In this document: one piece after another, positions 1,590-62,209 of the stretch
Numbering within the stretch: position 1 is the first letter of the stretch
Layout of the letters: each line of letters opens with the position of its first letter
Assembly (NCBI GenBank): GCA_019054805.1
Contig: JAHQIY010000020.1
Coordinates: 992,001-1,056,000, forward strand
Direction of reading: 5' to 3'
DNA from: Brachionus manjavacas
Lineage: Eukaryota > Rotifera > Eurotatoria > Ploima > Brachionidae
Length of the DNA: 64,000 nt
Notes under the pieces: model-generated
The model's database searches: none
Told to the model about the DNA's origin: nothing
What the model saw: only the letters and a program-made list of their open reading frames with translations
Program-made: the position numbers and the translations under genes

Positions 1590-1930
1590 TTGTGAAGATG
1601 CAGATGCCTAGCGGCCGGGGCAAGGAGGCTTACAAGCAAGAGCTGATGACGTGTCTGGCAGACCCTTAGTACTTAGTGAAAAAAGTAAAGTATCTTTTTT
1701 TGGATATGCTTGTATCCATCTATAGATACGCTTGGTTTGTGGTTCCAAGCTAGTCTAAATAGTTGCCGAGTTCGCAGCCTTTAAGTGCTCGGATGAGTGG
1801 CGCTGTTTATGATGAACGTCCCACAGTAACTTTGTCGGCAGATTGTTGAGTCGTAACCATACCATTGCCGGTCCCAAGTCCGGATGAAAAAATGGGAGGG
1901 AGACTTTTCATACACGCACACTTGGTGTCA
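1590..1930. repeat. GC-richer block, probable retroelement remnant
   Basis: Composition changes sharply against AT-rich flanks. It contains short hairpins such as GTCTGGCAGAC, and near 1858 the motif CCGGTCCCAAGTCCGG followed by a purine-rich tail with GGGAGGG. A related motif, CCGG..CCCAAGTCCGG, occurs on the minus strand in an RPS6 intron near 41.77 kb, suggesting a dispersed family. No open reading frame survives. I recall similar motifs in 3' regions of site-specific non-LTR elements but cannot verify that here. Confidence 0.4.
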
Positions 1931-2223: not shown

Positions 2224-4726
2224 TTATTGAACGTTTAATGCTGGCAATACAGTACCAGTGCATTCACCAAAACCCACTCGGTATCCATCTCCTTGGCAAT
2301 AACCTTTTAAAATTTCAAACTTAAATTTTTTAATTAAAATTAGCAACTTTAACCTTTCATTGTTATAGTATCACCATCTTGTAAGAAAACTCTCTTCAAC
2401 TTGCCTTCTGAGTCAAACAAAATTGGCTCTGAACCTCTCCAAGTAATCTCTAACAACGATCCGAACGAATCTTTACTCTCACCACTAATGGTGCCAGAAG
2501 CCAATAGATCACCAGGTCTGGCATTACATCCAGTTATAGTATGATGTGCTAACTGCTGTTTCATAGTCCAATACATGTATTTAAAATTTGATTTGGAAAT
2601 TGTCTTTTCCATGTTAATATCCCCGGGTTTAAGATTTACCTCAAGATTTATATTAAACATATATGGGTCCTCATGCTGTAAATATTTGAATGGCTTAGGG
2701 TTTTGTTCTTCACCTTTTACAACAAATGGCATCAACGCTTCCATTGTCACAACCCATGGTGAAATTGAGGTTGCAAAATTTTTGGCTGTGAATGGACCAA
2801 GGGGAACATATTCCCACTTTTGTATGTCTCTTGCTGACCAGTCATTCATGACCACCATGCCGAATATGTGCTCGTGAGCTTTCTCTACAGGAATGTACTG
2901 GCCGAGCTCATTTCCGGGACCGACAAAGAAAGCCATTTCAAGCTCAAAGTCCAGTAGCTTGCATGGGCCAAATACTGGTGGCTTTGTGTCATCTGGACGC
3001 ATTTGACCAACTGGACGTCTCACCGGTGTGCCTGAAACAACAACTGACGAAGCTCGGCCGTGATAACCAACTGGAAGATGAAGCCAATTTGGCATCAGTG
3101 CGTTTTCTTTGCCCCTAAACATAATGCCAACATTAGTTGCATGCTGTCTTGATGAATAAAAATCAGTGTAGTCTCCGATTTCGGCTGGTAAATGCATTTT
3201 ACACTTTGATCGATCAATAATTGCTTTGGCTCTCAATTCTTGGTCATCTCTCAGGGTCGGACAGTTCTCGGAAAGTAACTCTTGAAGACGAGCTCGGGTT
3301 TCTTTCCAGAATAAATGACCAAGTGACATAAATTGGTTCAATGTCGAATGTCTTAAAGCATCTTGTTTGTCTTTCATTAATGGACCATTGAATAAATGTG
3401 CCACTTGGGATAAATCAAGCACATAGTCACCAATTGCAACGCCGATTCTATGCTGGACCTAGAAAAATTCAAAGTAGATAATTCTATAAATGTTCAATTT
3501 TCAAATCAGCATTTTATTATTAATCAATAAATGGATTCAATCGACCCATTAAATGGGTATGACACGAGTCTTTTCCAATTGATTTGAGGGGAGAATTTTT
3601 TTTTAATTTTTTTATCATTGATTAATAGAAATTGGGAAAAAATTAAAAATAAAAGGCTGGTTTATTTTTAGTTTAAGAAAGAATGGAGAAAATGAATAAA
3701 GACATGAAGCCTGACTAAATTAAATTCTTGAAAAGGAAATTCGAAAATTTTTCCGCAATAACATATTTTAAAATAAATAACAAAAAAAAATACGAAGGCC
3801 GATTTTTAATTTCCACAAAAAAAGCCTAAAAAAATGCTTAAAAAAATGCCTTTTTTAAAATAAAAAACTGAAATTATCAATAAAAAAGTTAAATAAAATA
3901 CAAAAAATAGTTTAACTAAATTATTAGTCCTTCTTCATAATTCTAATGCATATATTTCTTTAATAAATTTTTAGAAAATTTTTTCAATTAAATATAAAAT
4001 TTATCAAGTAAAATATCCTTAAAAAATTTAACAGTTTGGTATCTATTAATTTGACATGCTAGTTCAGCATTCCCATTAAAATTATTTACAATTTTACTTT
4101 ATTTTGTATGATGTTTTCAAAAACCTCTCTTCGACCTTAACGAAAATATTTATTTTTTACATTAAAAAAAAATGGTCGAACTTATTAGAAAAATACTTAA
4201 ATTGTTAAATTAATTGATTTATTGAGAAAAATTATCACAAAGAGTCAAAAAAACTACTGCCTTTGTTCGATAAAAATTCAATGAAAAAAAGTGAAGCTAA
4301 AATATCTAGCTTTTTAAATTTTTTTGATAAATTGTTTAGTTCCCTGAGTTTGTTTTGGATGTTATTTATTTTTTTTTGTATAAAGCTTTTTTTCAATTTT
4401 GAAAAAACATTTTTTAATAAATTCAAATGGATAAATAGAAAATTCAAAAAAATCTTGTTTCAATTTTTAATATCTTATTTGTGGAAAAGACAACTACTTA
4501 GAGATTTTAATTTGTTTTTTTTAAATGCATCGAAATTTCAAAAAAAACAAAATTTTATCTCTTACACATCTAACACATCTATTTTAAAAACATTTTTATT
4601 TTTTTAATTATAAATTTTATTTGTTAATTATTAAAAAAAACTTACGTCGTCACTTGTTGAAAAGATGCCATAAGGCAAATTTTGATAAGAAAAGTCACAA
4701 TTCGCGTCAACTCTAATGAATGACAT
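2224..4726 (-). CDS. FAH: Fumarylacetoacetase (fumarylacetoacetate hydrolase), 3 exons
   Basis: FAH cleaves 4-fumarylacetoacetate into fumarate and acetoacetate, the last step of tyrosine catabolism. Exons on the minus strand: 4646-4726, 2354-3458 and 2224-2303; splice phases agree (0, then 1) and give 421 aa, close to the human length (419). Exon 1 starts [20 protein letters not shown], the usual family start. Hallmarks follow: [17 protein letters not shown] with the active-site region, [14 protein letters not shown], the metal-binding [32 protein letters not shown] with metal Asp, and LASGTISG near the C-terminus. Exon 3 encodes [20 protein letters not shown]. The last intron is only about 50 bases; intron 1 is about 1.19 kb and AT-rich with nothing recognised. 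All active-site regions look intact, so the enzyme should work. Confidence 0.96.
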
Positions 4727-4975: not shown

Positions 4976-5824
4976 CTACGATTGAGAACTAAACTGAGAG
5001 CATGCATAGGCATTTTTAGCAGTAGAAAGCGATTCCAAAAGACCATTGATTTGATCTGTGCTAAAGCTTTGCTTGCAGCTTGGACAATCTTTGCCTCCTT
5101 TAAAAAAGCGCTTGGCACAGTACCTGTGCAATTTCACTGAACAACCTGAGCAGCTAAAACTGCTTAAAACAATAAATTTACACAAATAACAATAGGACAA
5201 GTCTTCGGCAGGAAATATTTGTTTTATGTACTGGCAAAGCTCGATGAGGGCTCTGCCGTGAAGAGTGATCATGTTGGGCGCATTGACAATCTCAATTAAC
5301 CAATTGTCCTGCATGAATTTTTCCAGAATGACGCGGATGTCACGGTTAGTGGGGCATCTTCCGATTTGAGTCTGACTTCCTTGGGATTCCTCAGTCAACT
5401 CGTCGTACATGGATAAAATTTCATTAAGGATTAAGTTATAATCAACGCTGCCAGTCTTTGACTCAACAATCAGCTCCAAAATCTTGCGGAATATTTTTAA
5501 GTCAGCAGGGGAATAGAGCTGAGATAGATCTCCGATAGAACTGGAGTCACACAACCGAATGATGCAGTAATAGCTCAGACCGGTTATCTCACAATTTCCG
5601 GCTTTTATTTCCATGTTAAAATGCTTGATTGCTTCATTTATTTCACGTAAAAATTTCACGTACATTGGCTTGATCTGGGTCTCCTCATGTTCGATTTGGA
5701 ACTTTTTGAGCACATTGCAGAACAGAACTTTAAAGTTTATTTGGTCGAGAATCCCTTTGTTGAGAATAATTTGTAAAAAATATTGCTGTGCCGGGCTCAA
5801 GTATATGTCAGACATGTTTAGCAA
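4976..5824 (-). CDS. NSMCE1: SMC5/6 complex subunit NSE1 (RING-like E3), intronless
   Basis: NSE1 is the RING-like subunit that pairs with NSE3/MAGE in the nuclear SMC5/6 complex and acts in recombinational DNA repair. The single open frame gives 282 aa (human about 266). The N-terminal two thirds contain winged-helix-type segments, e.g. AQQYFLQIILNKGILDQ and the conserved KFMQDNWLIE..ITLHGRALIELCQYI. The C-terminal domain (about residues 218-262) has paired zinc ligands CYLC, CSGC, HRYC and CPSC, the C4HC3 variant RING typical of NSE1 rather than a classical C3HC4. The first Met is used; a second Met (residue 4) is possible. It lies about 250 bases upstream of FAH on the same strand. Confidence 0.9.
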   Translation of the reverse strand: MLNMSDIYLSPAQQYFLQIILNKGILDQINFKVLFCNVLKKFQIEHEETQIKPMYVKFLREINEAIKHFNMEIKAGNCEITGLSYYCIIRLCDSSSIGDLSQLYSPADLKIFRKILELIVESKTGSVDYNLILNEILSMYDELTEESQGSQTQIGRCPTNRDIRVILEKFMQDNWLIEIVNAPNMITLHGRALIELCQYIKQIFPAEDLSYCYLCKFIVLSSFSCSGCSVKLHRYCAKRFFKGGKDCPSCKQSFSTDQINGLLESLSTAKNAYACSQFSSQS

Positions 5825-6335
5825 AGCAAAGTATTTGCACTAAGGGCGTGTTAATTTACTGATTTAAAATTCTTCAAAATTTCAAAAGTTGCATTATGAA
5901 CGCTTGGTTTTTAAACAGAACAGGTTTTGATTTAATATTTGTTCAGTGAATTGTCTTGAAATAATTTTTATTTTTGAAAAAATTTTATACATTTTCTATT
6001 TTTTTTTTTTTTATTTAATTCAATATTGGATATTAATTTAATTCTTCAAGAAATGTTATGAATTTTTACAATAGTAAAAGAAAGAATTTTTAGATTGTTG
6101 ATGAATCTTTTTATTATGATTTGTTTTTTATTTTTTATGCTTCATTAAGACCTTGAAATTTATCAAATTTATTTATCAAAGTCAATTTTAAAATTTATTA
6201 GAATCCTTTTTTTTAATATTTTCAGAATCTTCCTCTTGTTGTAAATAGAAAAATTAACCAAGTTTTCAAAAAAATAGGAATATTGCTAGTTCCATCTCTT
6301 TTTTCGTAAATAATAATAAAGTTTATGAGACAGCG
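5825..6335. other. AT-rich intergenic spacer
   Basis: About 500 bases upstream of NSE1, with homopolymer T and A runs. I see no coding region, no repeat and no clear promoter motif. Confidence 0.5.
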
Positions 6336-24994: not shown

Positions 24995-27090
24995 AAAAAT
25001 AAAGTAGTAGTAATATGAACTGCAACTCGGAAAAAATACCCGAGCAGAGCTCTAATGAGCTATAGCAGTCGCTACTTTTTTCACAAGCCAAGCATCTAAT
25101 TTCGACTTAAAAATGTTCAACGTTCTTGCGCTAACTATTTCTTCCGGCAATTGGTTCCATATGTTTACAACTCTTTTTGTGAAAAAATGGAAACGCGAGG
25201 AACAGTTTTTTATCTGTTCACGACGTAGAGTCTTTGAATGCTTTCTTAAGCCGTATACTTGACCACTTTGACCATAGGTTAATCCATTATTAAACTCAAC
25301 TAACTCAATTTTATTATTTAATTTGAACAATTGGGTCAAATCTCCTCTCAATCTTCTCGTAGTTAGGTCCGTCAGGCCGAATTTAATTAAGCGAGTTGAG
25401 TAAGGAAGGTGCTTTAAATTTGGAACTAACTTAGTTGCTCTCCGTTGAATCTTTTCTATCATATCGATATCTTTTTTCAGGTAAGGGCACCAAGAGGTTA
25501 TGGCAAATTCTAAGTGAGGTCTAACCATTGAAGTGTACAGTAGTCTAATGTTGTTTACATTGGGATATCTGAGCGATTTTTTCAGCATACCCAGAATCCT
25601 GTTAGCTTTAGCTGTGACATATGTTACTTGAGTGTCCCATTTTAGGTCATTTTTGATAAATATACCGAGATCTTTTTCGCAAACTGATTTATTAAGTGGA
25701 AATGACTCCATTGTGTAATCATGTTTTGAGTTGTTACGACCAAAATGGACAACTTTACATTTCTCGACATTAAGCTGAGCAGACCAGTCTCGTGACCACT
25801 TACATATATTATCAATGTCAAATTGTAACTTGTATTTAGAGGAAGAATCTACAATTGTGGCTATAATCTTGTTGTCATCCGCGTACGCTTTCGAGCTATT
25901 TTGAATACACTCAAGTAAGTCATTTATGTATAAAATGAATAAAATGGGGCCAAGGACAGAACCTTGAGGAACTCCGCTTGTAACTACCGCCCATTCTGAC
26001 TTTGCTTCGCCAAGTACGACTTGTTGTGATCGCCCAGTTAGAAATGAACTTATCCAGTTTATCAAACGCTCATTAAAGCCATAAAATTTAAGTTTAAAAA
26101 CTAAATTTGAATGTGAAACCTTGTCGAAGGCTTTTGCAAAATCGGTTTACACCACATCCACGGGGTAGCCATTTGACAAGGCATGTGTAATCAGGTCCAG
26201 TGTCTCAAGTAAATTTGTGCTGCAGGATCGCTTTGGAAGAAAGCCGTGCTGAGCTTTCACGATGAGCCTATTATCTAGCAAGTGTTTGAGCATGACCTCT
26301 TTTAATAGACCTTCCATGACTTTACAGAGGATACAAGTTAGCGAGATCGGTCGATAATTTGAAGGTTGTAATCTTTTTCCTCCTTTATGAAGAGGAGTAA
26401 CATAAGCCTTTTTCCAGATGTTTGGTACTGTTCCAGTCACAAAGGACTCGTGAAAAATAAGGGAAATCGGAAGTGAAAATGCTTTAGCGCAACTTCTTAG
26501 GACTAAGCTGTTTATCATGTCTGGTCCTAGGACTTATTTGGGTCCAAATTTTCGAGTGTGTTAGTAGTTTTGTTAATGCTAAACATTTCCACTGGATCGG
26601 GGTCAAATACCTTTGTGGTTTTGTAGAAAAACTCCGGAAAATTTGAATTAACATCTTTGTTAAAAACTGATTTAAAGTAATCATTTAAATAATTCGCAAT
26701 CTCTGTAGCATCCGTCGTGATGCTATTTGAACTCGTAATGTTCAATGCTTTAATCGAGTTATTTACTGTCATTTTACCATTAATATAATTGTATACAAGC
26801 TTTGGATTTTTTTTTGCATTCATTGCTAGGTTATTTTCGTATCTTCGTACTGCTTCTTTAATTGCAAATTGACCTTCTTTATTTATGCGTCTATATATAG
26901 TTTCTTTTTCGGTTGACCAGCCACTTGTCATATATGCTTGCCATGCTGAATACTTTTTACGACTGATTTTTCTTAAATCTAAATTTAGCCAAGGCTTTTG
27001 TTTTTTGTTTGAGCACCTTTTTGGAACAAACATATCTACAGCCAAACTATAATATGATCTGAATTTCTCAAACATTAAATTTTAAGAATT
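24995..27090 (-). mobile_element. 5'-truncated CR1-like retroposon, lightly mutated
   Basis: Three adjacent minus-strand frames (26527-27075, 26147-26518, 25052-26065) make one reverse transcriptase protein. Blocks seen: KPWLNLDLRKISRKK, then NYRPISLTCILCKVMEGLL, QHGFLPKRSCSTNLLETLD, SSFLTGRSQQVVLG, TSGVPQGSVLGPILFILYIN, AYADDNKII, CEKDLGIFIKNDLKWD and the tail FFTKRVVNIWNQLPEEIV. The frames are separated by one frameshift near 26527 (NLDPNKS/GPDMINS) and one TAA near 26145 before TDFAKAFD. The endonuclease is absent, i.e. 5' truncation. The 3' end shows the hairpins AGCTC..GAGCT and CTCGG..CCGAG, then a TAC-type trinucleotide tail near 25005. Confidence 0.92.
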
Positions 27091-37800: not shown

Positions 37801-39924
37801 TGGTGTTTTTTTTTTAAATTACCTTGGCAGGATGCAGGTGCTGCGCGAGCTTGGTCTGGACGAGTCGTTCCGCGACACCACTGAGTCACAAGTGTTGGGT
37901 CTCTTTTATTTTTTTTAGAAAAATTTTTTTAGAATTTTTTTTTTCCACCCTTAACTTACATTCTGCATTTCGGTGAGAGCTTTTCCACTCTGATCTACCA
38001 AGTTGACAAAATCTTTGAAAAATTTCATTTTTATTCGGCAATTTTTGATCTGTAGTTTGCCGATTCCGGTGAAAGTGAACTCGATGTTTTTCTTTGCCTG
38101 GACACTTCTATTGAGTACCTGGAGAACGTGTTTGACACACGCTTCGATGTCGTCACGGCAAAAAGCGGTCTCGTTCGCTATGGCAATGTAGTTGAGCGGG
38201 TGGACGGGTATGTTGCCGGCCACCGGGTGCTTTGCGTTCAGCAGTCTGTGAGTCTGACTGAACTTCTCCGCAATCACAAACACTGGCCGCTGGACCAGCA
38301 TGAATTTGCTGTTTCCAACATCGGTTTTTTTTTGTATAAAGGTAAACGTGCCCAGTCCTGGAATGCTTACACCTTTTGTTTGTGACATAAACTTCTCAAT
38401 ATAAGCCGAAACTTCATTCCACACTTGCACAATGTCTTTTATTAAGAAAAAATTCAGACTTATTTTAATTTAAATTTTTTTATTTATTCCATTTTAGATT
38501 TAAAAAACTTTAAAATTTTTTATTTTTTTATCTATTCTTAGTTTGTCAACAAATTTTTTTCTATTTTTAAATTAAATTATAGAAATTTCGAATTTAGATA
38601 TTAAAAATTTGTTAATAAATTTGAACAATTTTTTTGAATTTTTATTTTTATTAATAAATTAAATAATTAATCAGTGCTAATCAAGAGAGGAACACTAGCA
38701 TGTTGATTTACCTTAAATTTAAACTTTAAAAACAATATTTTTAATTTAAGTAATCAAATTAAATTTATTAAATTAGATTTATTGATAAAAGTAGTTATTA
38801 AGATTTGTTAGCAGTAGAAGTGGTAAGGTAAGCTTTGGGGATCAAGTACGGAGTTAACTCGACACGTATTTTTTGTCGAACTGATACTCAATTGAAGACG
38901 ATAAGTCTTTTAATTTAATTCTTTTAAATATTATACATTTCATTTTCTATACTTCTATTATAGATTAATCTTGATAGGTGTTTTTCTAGAGTAAATTTTT
39001 ATCTTTATTTACACAATTGTAAAGTTGGGTTCAGCAGGAACTGCAAGGCAACATGAACAAATTTTAAAAGTCTTTTAATCATGTGCAAAATCTCTGCAAA
39101 ATTCTGCACCAGACTTAAATATTTAGAAATCAAGATAAAAATTAATTTACTTGATTTAAAAATTCCTCAAGCTGCAGATTTTATGCAGGCACTGTCTTAA
39201 GGTGCAATTAAGGATTCATAAATAAATTTTTATCATCAGTTTTTTAGAATTTTATTCTGTTTTTTTTTGTACCGAATTTGACAGAATCAGTCTAAACTCC
39301 GAGTTTATAAAATAACTAAAACCAAACTAGTTTAGCTTATCTGTTAGATAAAAAATAAAAAAAAAGATCTATAGCATTAAAGGTCATTTGATTATGAGTT
39401 AAATTAAAATAATAGTAATTAATTTCAAGAGCTGATTCAGCGACCACAACTTCTTAATGGAAATGCAGACTACATTTGGTTGTTTAATAGCTTCAATTTA
39501 ATTCAACTCCTTAATGAAATGTAAAGGTGGATAAAGATGCTTTACTTTTTATCATGCTATTTGGAGCTCAGCTTTTTTTTTCATGTTTTGATTACCAAAC
39601 AAAATCATTTTTTTTTCTTTTTTGCATTTTGCTTTGGGACAATTTTTAAATGCTGTAATTTTTTTAGCTTCAAAAGACCTCTCTATCTTTGTTTTAATTT
39701 TTTTTTGTTGCCCTGAACTTGACATTAAAAAATCAAAAAAAAAACTTTTTGAAAAAAATTCAATCTTTTTTGATCTGGCTGCAAAAATCCGCAATGGAAC
39801 TTTAAAATTTCACCCGATAAAATTAATAAATGTGTCACTTACCCGTGTTTTTAAGATTTGAGTTGGCCACCCCGTTGATATTGATATCAGTGGTTCGTTT
39901 TATTATGTTATTAATGTTATCCAT
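34819..39924 (-). CDS. CCDC81: CCDC81 homologue (paired HU-like domains, coiled coil), 8 exons, 703 aa
   Basis: Exons 39843-39924, 37960-38435, 37823-37902, 37673-37767, 36448-37088, 36218-36387, 36084-36162 and 34819-35307 join in phase. The N-terminus (about residues 28-185) holds the two HU-like domains of the CCDC81 family: MSQTKGVSIPGLGTFTFIQK, then KFMLVQRPVFVIAEKFSQTH and IEFTFTGIGKLQIKN. A zinc-ribbon-like motif follows in the middle: HPCPH..ELCYLCHQRQRRNN. The rest is charged coiled coil (RPKTSDLG, LAAQREAFLKEKARRQNELK). The end KYRRCAQCQRDTKNYGETNL followed by WKESRYTAGTR is diagnostic and nearly identical in pattern to the vertebrate C-terminus. In vertebrates the protein is centrosomal; role here inferred. 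Intron 1 is about 1.4 kb, the others short. Confidence 0.93.
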
Positions 39925-45028: not shown

Positions 45029-45785
45029 ATGGACTCAAATTTTTTGCTTGAAACAAACTGGCCAACGTTTGGACAGGGAACCGTATCTGGGCATTCAAAA
45101 ACTTTGCATGAATGGTGCGGTAATATTTCGAAATTCGTCCTGGAGCTTTCAAATCATGTGAAACATCTAGAGGAAAGAGAAATTGAGAAAGACATTGAAA
45201 TAAACAAACTGAAATCTGAATTGGCAGCAGCAAATAAAACAGCAAACTCATCCAACATCAGTAGTCAGTGGGTTCAAGTTGTAAAACAAGGGACAAAAAA
45301 TGCAAAAAAACCAGCCGACCAGATAGCTGTAGCAAATGCAACCATCAGCGAAATGAATGAAAGAATCAAAAGAAAAAAATGTGATCATTTATGGTGTGCC
45401 AGAATCAAAGAAAGAGATTCTAACAGACAGGAGGGCAGAAGATGAAGAAAAAATCAAACAAATTTTGACCACTATTGGGAAAGGTGATGTCAAGCCAGCG
45501 TATTCAAGACGCTTGAGATCGAAAGACCAAAGTAAACCAGGCCCAATTCTAGTAGAACTCAAAGAAGAAGCAAACAGAAATCCACTACTACTAGCAGCCA
45601 AAAAGTTGCGAGATTCAAATAATTTCAAATCTATTTATCTTAGTCCAGATTTGACTGAAACCGAAAGAGCTTTAGACTATGAATTGAGGAAACAAAGAAA
45701 CGAAGCAAATAATGGTCTTTCACAAGACTCGCCCTTTCGATATGGCATCCGTGGAAATCAGATCGTCAAATTCAAGAAGCAATAA
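45029..45785 (+). CDS. Retrotransposon ORF1 (coiled coil plus RRM-like domain), one frameshift
   Basis: The first frame (45029-45445) starts MDSNFLLETNWPTFGQG, has a predicted coiled coil (about residues 38-72, LSNHVKHLEEREIEKDIEIN), then MNERIKRK. The domain then continues in the next frame (45357-45785) as NVIIYGVPESKKEI, then GPILVELKEEANRNPLLLAA and YLSPDLTETERALDYELRKQ. This is the RRM-like/CTD arrangement of L1- and CR1-type ORF1 nucleic-acid chaperones. The break falls in a run of seven A bases near 45371-45377; removing one A restores a single frame. It may be a real mutation or a homopolymer sequencing error. Confidence 0.85.
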
Positions 45786-48684
45786 TCGTTCATCAAAAGC
45801 GTCATCACGTGTGGATAATCTCGAATCTTTAAAATGTATGTATTTAAATGCTACTTCCTTGGACAATAAACTTGATGAATTCAGTGTTGTTATTGAAACA
45901 TATAGCCCACAAATTGTGGCAGTTAGTGAGACTTGGTTTAAGAGCAACTCAAATGCAAACATTAAAGGATACAATTTGTACAGAAAGGACAGAAGTGATG
46001 GACGTAGAGGCGGGGGTGTATGTCTCTACATTGATGAAAATATCGATTCATTTGAATTAAATGATGCAGGTTTTAATTTAAGTAAAATAGAACAAATTTG
46101 GGTAGTTGTTAACTTTAACTGTGAAAAGTATTTAGTTGGCTGTCTTTACAGGCCAAACGATTTTGTTGATATGAACGATTTTGATTTAGTCTTCAAACAA
46201 GCTAAAGACTATGTGGATGAAAGAGGTTTTAAGGATATTCTAATAATGGGTGACTTTAACTTTCCATCAATCATCTGGTCAAATGGCTGTGTTTCAGAAA
46301 TCTTAAACGAAAATGGCATTGAACATAAATTCAGCGAAACGCTAAGCGACACTTTTTTATATCAGCATGTAAATATTCCTACATTTCAAATGTCAAACGA
46401 AAAAGCTGTCAACACTTTGGATTTGATTTTCACGACTCAGTCTGGCAGTGTGTATGCAATCGATACAAAATTTGTGCTTGGTAACATTAATAAAGGACAT
46501 CTGGTTATCTTTTTCAATTTTGTACTCAAAAACAAGGTTAGTAAGGAATCATATATTATTGAAAAATTTCTTTATAGTAAAGCTGACTTTGAAAAAATTT
46601 CTGATTTTTTATCAAATATTGATTGGGTGCACTTATTTGAGAATTTAAATATTCAGGAAATGTACAATGAGTTTATTTTCTATGTCAGCGAAGCTAGTAA
46701 TCGATTCATTCCAGTAACGGATGGCTCTAAAAAGAAAAGTATCTCAAAACCTTGGATAAAAGATGATCTCAAGATCTTAATTAGGAATAAGAAAAATCTA
46801 AGATACAGGAACTGTTCATGTAACTGGAAGGATATGAATCTTTATAATGATTACAAAAGTATCTGTAAATTAGTTTCTTCGGAAATAAAAAGAGCCAGAC
46901 TCACTTATGAACAAAATTTAGTAGATAAAGCTAAGAAGAATCCAAAATTATTATACAAATATCTAAATGATCAACAAGTAATCAGAGAATCAATCAAAGC
47001 ATTAAAGAAGTCAAACAATGAATTAACGCAAGAACCGAAAGAGATATCAAATCTACTAAATAAATGTTTTCAAGATGTTTTTGTTATTGAACAAGATGGG
47101 GAGCTTCCACCTTTTGTAGCTGAACTAAATGAAAACTGTTCAGAATATATTGACATTGAACCAAATGATATTAGTTATGAAGTGGTTTATAAAAAATTAC
47201 AAGACCTTAATCAAAATAAATCATGTGGTGTAGACAAGCTTCATCCGCTATTGCTAAAAAACTGTGCAGAAGCCTTTACTGTTCCTTTAACTTTAATTTT
47301 CAGAAAGTCTTTATCTAATAGTCAGCTTCCAATACAATTCAGATCAGCAAATATTACTCCATTGTTTAAAAAAGGTGATAAATCAACGGCCAGCAATTAT
47401 CGTCCCGTGTCTTTAACTTCAATTCCGTGCAAAATAATGGAAAGCATAATAAGAACCAAAATGGAAGACTATCTTTATAAGAACAATATTATATCTAAAG
47501 AACAGCATGGATTTGTCAGGAAAAAGTCATGTACATCTAATCTTATGGAAACTCTAGATTTCATCTCAATGAGTCTAGACAAAAGTATTCCTGTTGATGT
47601 AATTCTGCTAGATTTTGCGAAAGCATTTGATACTGTTCCGCACAGACGACTAATAGCTAAATTGAAAGCGTATGGCTTTGATGGTCTGACACTAAAATGG
47701 ATTGAAGCTTTCTTGAAAAATAGAAGACAACGAGTTGTTCAAGGTGAAATTTTGTCGGATTGGGTTGAGATTTTTAGCGGTGTACCACAAGGATCAGTGA
47801 TTGGTCCACTTTTGTTCGTTTTGTATATCAATGATCTACCAAAAGGAATAGAGAATATTGTCAAAATGTATGCAGATGATACAAAAATATTCTCGCAAAC
47901 GGTATCAGAAATATGCGCAGTGAAAATTCAATCAGATTTAGATTTAATTTTCAAGTGGACTCAAGATTGGCTTCTTCTCTTCAACACATCAAAATGTGTG
48001 GTTATGCATTACGGTCATAAAAACAAAGAATTCACTTATTCTATTAATGGTAAACAGTTATCAACGTCTGAAACCGAAAGAGATCTTGGAGTTATCTTCA
48101 ATACAAATCTCAAATGGAAAAACCAAGTGATAGAGGCTACAAACAAAGCAAATCAAATGTTGGGTCGCATCAGGAAATCATTCGCTCGTTTTGATTGTAA
48201 GTTATTTAGATCATTGTATTTAACTTTTGTTCGTCCTCTTTTGGAATTTGCTGTGCCTGTATGGTCTCCATTTCTTAAGTCGGATTGTGAGAATCTTGAG
48301 AGGATTCAACGCAGAGCTACGAAATTTGTTTCTTCAATTAGAAACAAACCGTATGAAAGCAGATTGAAGGCTTTAAACATTCCAAATCTGGTGGAAAGAA
48401 GAAAAAGAGGTGATCTAATTCAATTATACAAGTTCATGCATGGAATAGAATTGGTTGAAAAAAGCAACAATTTTAATGTCACCAAAATCCAAGGAAGAGG
48501 TCACTGCTTCAAATATCACAAAGAAATTTCGAGGCTCCAACATAGAGATAACTCTTTTTTCAACAGAACCGCTAACATATGGAACTCACTGCCAAATCAA
48601 TTAGTTGAAGCCCCTAATGTTAACAGCTTTAAAGCAGGCATTGATTGTTGGATGAGCAGCAATCAATCACATCAGCTGTCATAG
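45712..48684 (+). CDS. Retrotransposon ORF2: AP-like endonuclease and reverse transcriptase, 990 aa
   Basis: The N-terminal domain (about residues 38-275) is an exonuclease-endonuclease-phosphatase fold: LKCMYLNATSLDNKLDE, VSETW, RRGGGVCLYI, GCLYRPN, GDFN (180-183) and NTLDLIF. The closing motif is KGHLVI (G262, H263) instead of the usual SDH. The reverse transcriptase (about 500-760) has NYRPVSLTSIPCKIMES, QHGFVRKKSCTSNLMETLDF, LDFAKAFDTVPH, SGVPQGSVIGPLLFVLYIND and MYADDTKIF (YADD at 720-723). The C-terminus has ERDLGVIF, VRPLLEFAVPVWSPF, ERIQRRATKFV and ANIWNSLPNQLVEAPNV. No RNase H. The frame is open throughout; it overlaps ORF1, so translation probably uses reinitiation. Confidence 0.95.
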   Translation: MVFHKTRPFDMASVEIRSSNSRSNNRSSKASSRVDNLESLKCMYLNATSLDNKLDEFSVVIETYSPQIVAVSETWFKSNSNANIKGYNLYRKDRSDGRRGGGVCLYIDENIDSFELNDAGFNLSKIEQIWVVVNFNCEKYLVGCLYRPNDFVDMNDFDLVFKQAKDYVDERGFKDILIMGDFNFPSIIWSNGCVSEILNENGIEHKFSETLSDTFLYQHVNIPTFQMSNEKAVNTLDLIFTTQSGSVYAIDTKFVLGNINKGHLVIFFNFVLKNKVSKESYIIEKFLYSKADFEKISDFLSNIDWVHLFENLNIQEMYNEFIFYVSEASNRFIPVTDGSKKKSISKPWIKDDLKILIRNKKNLRYRNCSCNWKDMNLYNDYKSICKLVSSEIKRARLTYEQNLVDKAKKNPKLLYKYLNDQQVIRESIKALKKSNNELTQEPKEISNLLNKCFQDVFVIEQDGELPPFVAELNENCSEYIDIEPNDISYEVVYKKLQDLNQNKSCGVDKLHPLLLKNCAEAFTVPLTLIFRKSLSNSQLPIQFRSANITPLFKKGDKSTASNYRPVSLTSIPCKIMESIIRTKMEDYLYKNNIISKEQHGFVRKKSCTSNLMETLDFISMSLDKSIPVDVILLDFAKAFDTVPHRRLIAKLKAYGFDGLTLKWIEAFLKNRRQRVVQGEILSDWVEIFSGVPQGSVIGPLLFVLYINDLPKGIENIVKMYADDTKIFSQTVSEICAVKIQSDLDLIFKWTQDWLLLFNTSKCVVMHYGHKNKEFTYSINGKQLSTSETERDLGVIFNTNLKWKNQVIEATNKANQMLGRIRKSFARFDCKLFRSLYLTFVRPLLEFAVPVWSPFLKSDCENLERIQRRATKFVSSIRNKPYESRLKALNIPNLVERRKRGDLIQLYKFMHGIELVEKSNNFNVTKIQGRGHCFKYHKEISRLQHRDNSFFNRTANIWNSLPNQLVEAPNVNSFKAGIDCWMSSNQSHQLS

Positions 48685-49318: not shown

Positions 49319-49391
49319 GCCCGGCTAGCTCAGTCGGTAGAGCATGGGACTCTTAATCCCAGGGTCGTGGGTTCGAGCCCCACGTTGGGCG
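49319..49391 (+). tRNA. tRNA-Lys (anticodon CTT)
   Basis: Complete 73-base cloverleaf. Acceptor stem GCCCGGC pairs with GTTGGGC (two G-U pairs), then discriminator G. The D arm is GCTCAGTCGGTAGAGC, the A-box region. The anticodon stem TGGGA/TCCCA encloses loop CTCTTAA with anticodon CTT. The T arm is CGTGG-GTTCGAG-CCCACG type with B-box GGTTCGAGCCC. No intron and no encoded CCA, as expected in eukaryotes. A T7 run directly downstream is the pol III terminator. Confidence 0.97.
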
Positions 49392-58200: not shown

Positions 58201-59487
58201 GTGATTGTGTGTTTTATGTGTTGCTGCATTGTATGGATAGTAGTTTATTGAGGGACTAATGAGAGAATTTTTTAGTGATGGGTAAAATGAAAGGACTGGT
58301 CAAAATTACAAAATAATTTATTTGTATAAATTTTTGTAGTAAAGTTAATATGAAAATATCGTGTCTATTAATTATCTCCAAGTGATCGATTTGACAAGTG
58401 TAAGTGGTCAGTGTGCAAAAACGAACAACGAACGGCCATAAATTATTTAGTCACGGGCACTTAAGGTACTAGTAGTAGTAGTAGCATTAGTGGTAGATAA
58501 GCAACAACAACAAGCACAACAACAAAAAATTTGCATTTTAGATGATCCTTGTTATTTGGGGTCCACCTTGAAGACAGGCAAAAAACAAAAAAAAACAATT
58601 AAAGACATTTGTGTGTGCTTTTATTTATGATAAGGAATATTAGCGAGCTTGAATAATGGAAAAAAAAAAAAAAAGAATATAAAAAGATAAAAGTTTCTCG
58701 TAAATGTCAGAGCATAAGTGGTGTTCTTAGCGAACGCTATTAGTGAGTTAGCTTGTACGTTTGTGTATTGTTGAGCTCGAATCAAAAGTTGTTGTTGTTT
58801 TGTTTCGACGAATCGTATGAACAAAACGATTTAGAAATTGGATTTAGACAAATGCCAATCAAATTAAGTGCAGTCGCAATCTCCGCCTCGCGATCTTAAA
58901 GTATTTTTATGATCATTTCTTTTTTTTTTGTTCGTTTTTATTTTTTCTTCCAATAAAATAATAAATAACTAAAATATCTTAACGAATTGAATTTATTCTC
59001 CAATTTACTTTTCTCTTTCTCTGTTCATTTCGCCAAGCTATATTTATCTATTTTTCGAATTTATTTCCAGCTTTTAGCCAAAAAAGATTAAACCCATTTT
59101 GCAATTACTGAAGGAAATTCTAAATAATTTCGATTTAGAACGGATACCTGCAAAATCTCTTAGATATCATCAACAACAACAACAACAACGACAACGACAA
59201 CAAATTCCATTTAAAAATAAAATATTTATTTAAGTCATTAGGCAGATGATGATAAATATGGGGTCCTTGACAAATCGTCTTGGCTCACTTCTTTGCTCTC
59301 TCTGTGCGTCTTCGTCTAATCGAAGAGAGGGGGCCACTCAACTTTTGTTGGCATTCTTTCTTTCGTCGAGCATCTGCTCTACGTAATTACATCTAAATAA
59401 AAGTGATATTAAACATTTAAATAACTTTAGACCTAAAATAAAAAACCCACACACATACACACAATCACACACATCACTGACAGAAGT

Positions 59488-62209
59488 ATGGAACAGCCTA
59501 GCAATGGCCTTAGTGCACCGTCAGCCTACGACTTGGCGTGCCGATACAACAGCCTGTTTCAGTACAGTCCGGCAGCAGCGGCGGCTTGTGCGGCCGCGTA
59601 CAACATGTTCGGCAGCTCGAAGAGCGCGCCCATGGGCTCGTCGAACAGTCCCTTTCAGCCGCTGGGCACCATAGCCACTTCGTCGCTGCCCTCGTCCTCG
59701 TCCTCCAACCTGACCTCGTCGCCCACTTCATCTCTCTCGTCGCTGCTCTCCACCAAGCCAACTGTGGTCGAACAACACGACGCCAACAACGCCAAGACCA
59801 ATGGCAATCAGTCGTACGAGAACGTGTCAGAGAACGGCTCGGCCAGTGATAACGACGAGGACGAGGACGACGCCGAGCACAACTGTTCGCGTGGGTCCAG
59901 CTCGTTCGAAGAAAAGGACGAAGACAAAAATGACGTCGACGTGCAAAAAGTACAGGAGCAACTGAGCGCCGAGGCGCACAAGTCAATAGCGGGCTGCTTG
60001 GACCAGCTGGTCGAGTGTGCAAACGACGAAGAGGAGAGTGGCAAAAAAGTGGAAGAGCACAGCATCGGCTCGCTGATGAACACTCTGGCCAAGCGCTCAA
60101 ATCTCAACGTTGATCTTGACGCGTTGAGAAAGAACCTCATCGATTCGGTGAGCCAGGCCATTGAGAGCACTCTGGACTCGTTTGTGAAACAAGATGCCGC
60201 CACTCGACCACAGCCAGGACAGCACGGTGCCAAGCACAAATCGAGTGACGACGAGACCAAGAGAGCTGAGCCGGCGCCAAAGCGAATCAGAGTCAATGAA
60301 AAAGTAGCCAAAAACTCCATGAACAATAGTCAAAATTTCAACGTGTCCAAAATATTGTCCAAAGACACTAGCAAGAGAAAAATGTCGTCTGTGTGCGACA
60401 CGTTCAGCGCCAAGCCACCACTGGCCCACCAGTCTTTGTTGACGGCACACACTAATTTGAATGGCAAGCAGGCGCATTTGTCCACATTCTACTCGGCAGC
60501 GGCCATGTCCCATTTGCCGCCGCCGCCGCCGCCCAGCTACAATGGCCTGGCCGCGGCGCCCATTGCCAGCTCGGCCTCGTCCACTGCGTCCAACGCGTCC
60601 ACCAACTCGTCCATATCGTCTCTGTTCGCCAATCATCAGCATCAGCTGCTAATGGCCGCGGCACATGCACATGCCGCCTCCGGCCAAAACTCGACCAACT
60701 ACTTACAAATGGCCGCCGCTGCCAACCGCCTCTTCACGCCCTATCTCCTCGATCAGCAGCACAAGCCCAGCGGAGCGTACACGCCGACCAGCAACGGCAT
60801 GTTTCACTCGTCGTCGGCGCACAAACGCCGACGAACCAAGGTCACTGACACCAGGTTGTCGCCGCGCAATCCTCTCAGCCGTGTTCTGAACGGCAAGTTG
60901 CGCGACCAGTCGCCCAACAACGACAACGACGAAGACAATGAATACGACGACGAACAGCACCAGCACCATCAAGAGGACGACAGCGCATCGAGCGGATGCA
61001 ACGAGTCCGGCAGCACCAACGGCAGCAATTGCAGAATAAGCACCACTGTCTACTCCACCAATGCATATGACATCAACACCGACAACACTGAATACACTGG
61101 CTATCAGATATCCTTTTTACAAAAATGATGACATTTTTTTAGATCGCACATGCATTACTAAAAGAGCTCTTTGTTTCTTTTGATCGTTATTAAGAAGCCA
61201 CTGATCGCTACCATTTCTAATGAGTCAAAGTATTCAACGATTGTTAGCCCATAGCATTGAATACAAGTCCTAGTGCTAGTGTTTAAATGATCATGCTTGC
61301 ATCACATGCAGAATTGAAATTTATACTTTAAAGCTTTTTATGTACTTGGTTCACATTTGATAACCATTAGTGATTCAGATTGTGGATAAAGGTTCAGACA
61401 GTGATGCTGGTGCGCACAACATGTACAGGCATTTTTTTATCTCTCTATGCAGCATAGACCCATTAGAGGGCTTCTTTCTGAGTTTTTGATTTCTTTGTAA
61501 CTAGTGATACGCGCTTGCTGAGGAGGAGTCTAATTAAGAAAGGATTAAAGACAAAATGTAAAGTTGTCTGGAAATAACGATCAAAAGAATTGGCGACTCT
61601 TTTTCTCTTTGTTTAGAATGCAATTTTTTTATTTTATTTGTCCATAACTCAGTTCATTACACCTCGACACTTTCGTCACTGCATTTGAGAAAAGCCAAGC
61701 TGATGTTCTTTTTCTCGAGATATCCGAGCTCGACCATTCTCAGAAACTACTTTCCGGACGTGAAATTCAACAAGGCCAACACGGCCCAGCTGGTCAAGTG
61801 GTTCAGCAATTTCAGAGAGTTTTTCTACATTCAAATGGAGAAGTTTGCCAGACAGCATTTGGCCGAGGGCATGCGCAGCGCCGACGACATACAAGTCGAC
61901 TGCGACTCCGAGATATTCAGAGCTCTCAACTCGCACTACAACCGAAACAACCAACTAGAGGTACCGCACCACACTCAGCCATCTTTGTGAGGCTTTGTTG
62001 ATTAATTTTTTGTGTTTTAGATTCCGGCTAGTTTTTGCTTCGTAATCCAGGCCACATTGAGAGAGTTTTTCAAGGCTATACAGGAGAACAAGGACATGGA
62101 CCCGTCGTGGAAAAAGGCCATCTACAAGATTATAGCTCGCATGGACGACCAAATACCAGAGTACTTCAAATCGGTTCAATGGATGGAATCATTGGAGACC
62201 AATATTTAA
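59488..62209 (+). CDS. PROX1: Prospero/PROX homeodomain transcription factor, 3 exons, 702 aa
   Basis: Nuclear transcription factor controlling neural and other cell fates. Exons 59488-61107, 61661-61960 and 62021-62209 join in phase 0. Exon 1 (540 codons) is low-complexity: Ala, Ser, Asp/Glu-rich blocks ([11 protein letters not shown]), a basic stretch resembling a nuclear localisation signal ([20 protein letters not shown]), and HQHHQEDD. Exons 2-3 encode the fused homeo-Prospero domain: [20 protein letters not shown], then [52 protein letters not shown] and [20 protein letters not shown]. Helix 3 residues KWFSNFREF are intact. Exon 1 is far more GC-rich than its surroundings. Intron 1 is of the U12 AT-AC class (separate entry). 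The ATG at 59488 is the first in the long frame, preceded by an AC-rich leader. Confidence 0.96.
61108..61660 (+). other. U12-type AT-AC intron in prospero
   Basis: After codon CAG the intron starts ATATCCTTTTT, matching the minor-spliceosome 5' site ATATCCTT exactly. It ends TCCATAACTCAGTTCATTAC, with TCCATAAC matching the U12 branch consensus TCCTTAAC at one mismatch and the last bases AC. Using AC as acceptor keeps phase 0 and yields [14 protein letters not shown], matching the Drosophila pattern STL..MHLRKAKL. No GT donor near the exon end preserves the frame. Confidence 0.85.

Follow-up and report, generated by a model that had tools for sequence, protein, structure and literature searches.

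It is very probable that positions 61108-61660 on the forward strand of the window (the whole 64 kb stretch of Brachionus manjavacas DNA that was analyzed) are a genuine AT-AC intron of the U12 type, which belongs to the prospero gene, descends from the bilaterian ancestor and is removed by the minor spliceosome. The intron is positioned directly before the part of the gene that encodes the homeo-prospero domain. It has a U12-type 5' splice site, a branch site and a terminal AC, and its removal keeps the reading frame. The genes for the four minor spliceosome RNAs are present in the same genome.

The prospero locus and its splice sites

The layout of the locus is as follows (window coordinates, forward strand throughout).

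59488-62209, +, prospero gene of B. manjavacas, 702 amino acids when joined
59488..61107, +, probable first coding exon of prospero, ATG start, 540 codons (1620 nt), ending in phase 0, within the open frame 59437-61128
61108..61660, +, U12-type (minor) AT-AC intron, 553 nt, phase 0, from its motifs, the frame and the minor snRNA genes in the same genome
61108..61116, +, U12-type 5' splice site ATATCCTTT, read in the sequence
61126..61128, +, in-frame stop inside the intron if it is retained, at the end of the open frame and in its translation
61641..61648, +, U12-type branch site TCCATAAC, from the sequence and its pairing with U12
61659..61660, +, AC 3' splice site, read in the sequence; joining at 61661 gives the conserved protein junction
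61661..61960, +, prospero exon 2, 300 nt, first part of the homeo-prospero domain (PF05044, 1xpx_A)
61961..62020, +, U2-type GT-AG intron, 60 nt, no second GT-AG pair being present in the short scans at its two ends
62021..62209, +, prospero exon 3 with a TAA stop, from the sequence and the joined coding sequence

The joined frame encodes 702 residues without an internal stop. At E<=0.001, the product of exon 1 has no match in Pfam. In a profile search with the joined protein, the homeo-prospero domain family (HPD, PF05044) matches with E=4.3e-77, and the match starts at residue 3 after the intron junction. A search of the PDB at E<=0.001 yielded three distinct sequences. Two of these, 1xpx_A (E=1e-72) and 1mij_A (E=4e-71), are Drosophila Prospero, which aligns to the protein after the junction, and the other is human PROX1 (2lmd_A, E=2.3e-61). 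The PDB alignment continues across the junction of the small intron at 61961-62020.

The order of exon and intron at the U12-type sites reads ...ACTGGCTATCAG / ATATCCTTTTTACA (61108) ... GTCCATAACTCAGTTCATTAC (to 61660) / ACCTCGACACTT.... The extended consensus of the U12-type 5' splice site is RTATCCTTT, with which ATATCCTTT agrees. The branch-site consensus is TCCTTAAC, located about 10-15 nt before the 3' end of the intron. The motif TCCATAAC differs from this consensus by one mismatch and is found at the expected distance, its second A being at 61647, 13 nt ahead of the last intron base. Removal of 61108-61660 restores an in-frame junction of 14 residues that matches fly Prospero. A first-pass annotation of this DNA had described an AT-AC U12 intron with the codon phase kept and the conserved junction restored. 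Its coordinates proved exact, the 5' site, the branch site and the terminal AC can all be read in the sequence, and the conserved protein is indeed restored in frame.

In a first-order Markov model with the composition of the intron, the motif RTATCCTT is found within 35 nt with p=0.00083, and a branch site with at most one mismatch together with an AC or AG is found in 45 nt with p=0.0047. Two U12-like motif pairs, one per strand, are seen in the 64 kb when both strands are considered; resampling the window 40 times gives 1.8 on average. The motif pair alone is as common across this AT-rich window as expected by chance. The intron call carries weight because the motifs sit between two prospero exons and the frame is kept. 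Minor introns are reported to be usually biased away from phase 0 (PMC10639083). The prospero intron, being in phase 0, runs against this bias, and this was counted against the U12 reading.

RNAs and proteins of the minor spliceosome

The assembly that was searched comprises 114.17 Mb in 61 contigs. It contains, once and without mismatch, an mlh3 guide site published for B. manjavacas (PMC10395877); the guide and both mlh3 primers fall within about 120 nt of one another, and two arms of the repair oligo have no match. The genome is accordingly taken to be that of B. manjavacas, a monogonont rotifer, or of a very close relative. In the Rfam search the best candidates alone were scored, with the gathering score of each family as the threshold. 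All four minor snRNA families have a candidate above gathering, each in one place: U11 (RF00548) with 79 bits, U12 (RF00007) with 82.2 bits, U4atac (RF00618) with 71.9 bits and U6atac (RF00619) with 88 bits. The recognition elements are kept in the alignments, namely AAAAAGGG in U11, GUAAGGAA in U12 and AAAGGAGAGA in U6atac, whereas the 3' parts of the rotifer U11 and U6atac fit the Rfam models less well.

Duplex calculations were carried out with the genome's own RNAs. The branch-binding stretch of U12 pairs best at the predicted branch site (-9.3 kcal/mol, rank 1 of 534 intron stretches). Pairing of the U11 5' end with the 5' splice site is possible, although it ranks just 53 of 541 intron positions. 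The 5' splice site ATATCCTTT can also pair with U6atac, and the duplex of U4atac with U6atac was calculated, without a control, at -32.3 kcal/mol.

The genes for U4atac (G000:C1:5167395-5167544) and U11 (5134721-5134859) are on the same contig and the same strand, about 33 kb apart. A stretch beside the U12 gene (positions 1-560 of locus L001) resembles, by eye, part of a transposase of the mariner type. A common promoter element was sought upstream of the four snRNA genes, and the best matches were just A/T-rich.

The protein components were sought in the genome with five family models: SNRNP25, PDCD7, U11-48K, CENATAC and SCNM1. SNRNP25 was found with E=2.1e-20 in the profile search and is supported by the PDB entry 8r7n_B (E=1.2e-10). 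PDCD7 has a weak profile match (E=2.1e-4) without PDB support. The zf-U11-48K family (PF05253) has four matches in the genome, among which U11-48K was not recognized; judged by eye, they presumably belong to two GTSF1-like genes, each of which has a pair of such fingers, and to a single gene of the TRMT13 kind. The genome profile search gave no match to CENATAC (PF14968) or SCNM1 (PF15803), a result that does not by itself demonstrate absence. In human cells, CENATAC has been tied to AT-AN introns (PMC8280824). Both proteins are thus unmatched in a genome that has an AT-AC intron and all four minor snRNA genes.

The first-pass annotation had also proposed that a functional minor spliceosome survives in this genome, a proposal that a complete absence of minor spliceosome RNAs would contradict. 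The four snRNAs above gathering, together with SNRNP25 and the weak PDCD7 match, support the proposal. In the minor-intron pathway, U11 and U12 recognize the intron, and U6atac, which arrives paired with U4atac, then replaces U11. In the prospero transcript, U11 and U12 would recognize the 5' splice site and the branch site, and U6atac, delivered by U4atac, would take the place of U11 and drive both splicing steps. Splicing would join codon 540 to the homeo-prospero domain. If minor splicing did not occur, the frame would end after six codons and the DNA-binding domain would be lost; the predicted product of intron retention is a protein of 546 residues that ends with ISFLQK and lacks the homeo-prospero domain. 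Because of this stop, production of Prospero with its domain is expected to require the minor spliceosome, and the intron might have a regulatory role.

Alternative readings of the intron

Possible replacements of the U12-type sites were scored with generic splice-site weights. The frame is kept by 26 of the 1443 GT-AG donor-acceptor combinations examined around the intron. In the best-scoring in-frame pair the donor is very poor (-3.6 bits), and exon 1 would lose 227 nt. Among the 15 in-frame pairs listed, those with a somewhat better donor (0.7) have poor acceptors. For scale, the donor and acceptor of the neighboring U2-type intron score 3.5 and 9.6 bits, respectively. The 1443 pairs contain no convincing in-frame GT-AG replacement for 61108-61660.

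A good U2-like acceptor, TTCTCTTTGTTTAG, is present inside the U12 intron (window 61603-61616, +). It ends 44 nt short of the 3' splice site of that intron. Its score of 10.5 is similar to that of the neighboring acceptor and could be taken to indicate a twintron of the Drosophila kind, in which a nested U2-type intron gives rise to a second isoform. This is very unlikely in the rotifer. The frame closes at 61126-61128, and no GT dinucleotide is present between 61108 and this stop, so that a nested in-frame donor is lacking. An acceptor of such quality is ordinary for the composition: one as good as that ending at 61616 occurs in 27% of random sequences with the same composition (3000 generated), and of 224 window stretches of equal length 32 contain one. 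Furthermore, the nested U2 sites reportedly arose early in insect evolution (PMC3564746). The nested U2 intron was rejected on these grounds. The first-pass annotation had named the intron after the prospero twintron position; the position in the gene holds, but the twintron does not, there being no in-frame nested pair. The segment 61108-61660 is best read as a plain U12-type intron.

It is less probable still that the AT-AC intron is handled by the major (U2) spliceosome, or that it is an ordinary GT-AG intron the ends of which have been misjudged. AT-AC introns of the major class are reported to exist (PMC8280824), and chance pairs of U12-like motifs do occur in 64 kb. However, U12-type features are seen in the extended ATATCCTTT and in a branch site placed 13 nt before the intron ends, none of the frame-keeping GT-AG pairs has two good sites, and the genome contains the four minor snRNA genes. 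The least credible explanation is that these genes are relics, that the intron is retained and that the 546-residue Prospero without its DNA-binding domain is the main product. The frame stop six codons into the intron and the non-detection of some minor-spliceosome proteins would agree with such a state. Against it stand an intact homeo-prospero domain of high conservation and the preservation of the recognition elements in U11, U12 and U6atac.

Counterparts in other animals and other genes of the rotifer

The fly pros intron is listed as an AT-AC twintron and that of human PROX1 as a U12 intron (Lin et al. 2010, PMC2831892 Table 2). In Drosophila prospero (CG17228, intron 2) the outer intron is of the U12 type, has AT-AC ends and is located in the homeodomain region, as in the rotifer (PMC2831892, PMC3564746, PMC8329584). 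Unlike the rotifer intron, which has no in-frame nested pair, the Drosophila intron contains a nested U2-type intron, the use of which results in a protein that is 29 residues longer (PMC3564746). The human PROX1 intron, the printed counterpart of the fly pros intron, is also of the U12 type and is found in an orthologous gene with a homologous domain (PMC2831892). It comes from another species. For both the fly and the human case in print, the agreement with the rotifer is one of gene and intron type.

The U12 form has been called ancestral (PMC3564746). The first-pass view that the rotifer intron is ancestral agrees with this and with the printed fly pros and human PROX1 cases (PMC2831892), and ancestry is accordingly the probable origin of the intron. 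The intron is a fresh rotifer case of one already reported in fly and human and is mostly expected. The great age of the intron had been recognized before, which makes the finding less surprising than the first-pass annotation had rated it. A literature search found no paper on U12-type introns or their spliceosome in Brachionus. Rotifers belong to the Gnathifera, and in this rotifer the prospero/PROX1 U12 intron lacks the nested U2-type intron of insects, in keeping with the printed view that the plain U12 form is ancestral. CRISPR editing is reported to work in B. manjavacas (PMC10395877), which makes it a spiralian in which one could probe whether Prospero depends on minor splicing.

Two other genes, PHB2 and syntaxin 6, were picked because they are listed with an AT-AC U12 intron in fly and a U12 intron in human; they were matched by gene and not by intron position. 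PHB2 (locus L016) has a single long exon over Band_7, and no U12 motif is found on the gene strand of its 3543-nt locus. The syntaxin-6-like gene (locus L031; Pfam E=6.4e-5) has a short U2-like intron, GTAAGA...CAG, near its start, after MSSDPFNIVKE, and the U12 motif is absent from the gene strand of this 3165-nt locus. The full motif RTATCCTTT is absent from both strands of loci L001-L031. The pattern of PHB2 and syntaxin 6, a sample of two genes, hints at depletion of U12 introns in monogononts as well.

A more far-reaching scenario can be proposed, which we regard as doubtful. The lineage would have shed most of its minor introns, the prospero intron would be among a small remnant for whose sake the entire minor spliceosome is maintained, and its AT-AC splicing would proceed without CENATAC and SCNM1. 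If this were true, an intron of a single developmental regulator would help to hold the minor spliceosome in place.

The Band_7 matches include a cluster at G000:C6:5354314-5390005, which accounts for 9 of the 23 matches listed; four of these nine have internal stops.

The remainder of the window contains several features away from prospero. At 1709-1829 (+), this animal genome contains a RAGATH-11 RNA (RF03148), which scores 106.3 bits (gathering score 79.4). Genes for a fumarylacetoacetase (2352-3458, -), Nse1 (4976-5839, -) and a CCDC81-like protein (37951-38469, -) are present, as is a tRNA-Lys (CTT) at 49319-49391 (+). Open frames at 25052-27081 (-) and 45688-48684 (+) resemble, by eye, reverse-transcriptase genes of non-LTR retrotransposons.
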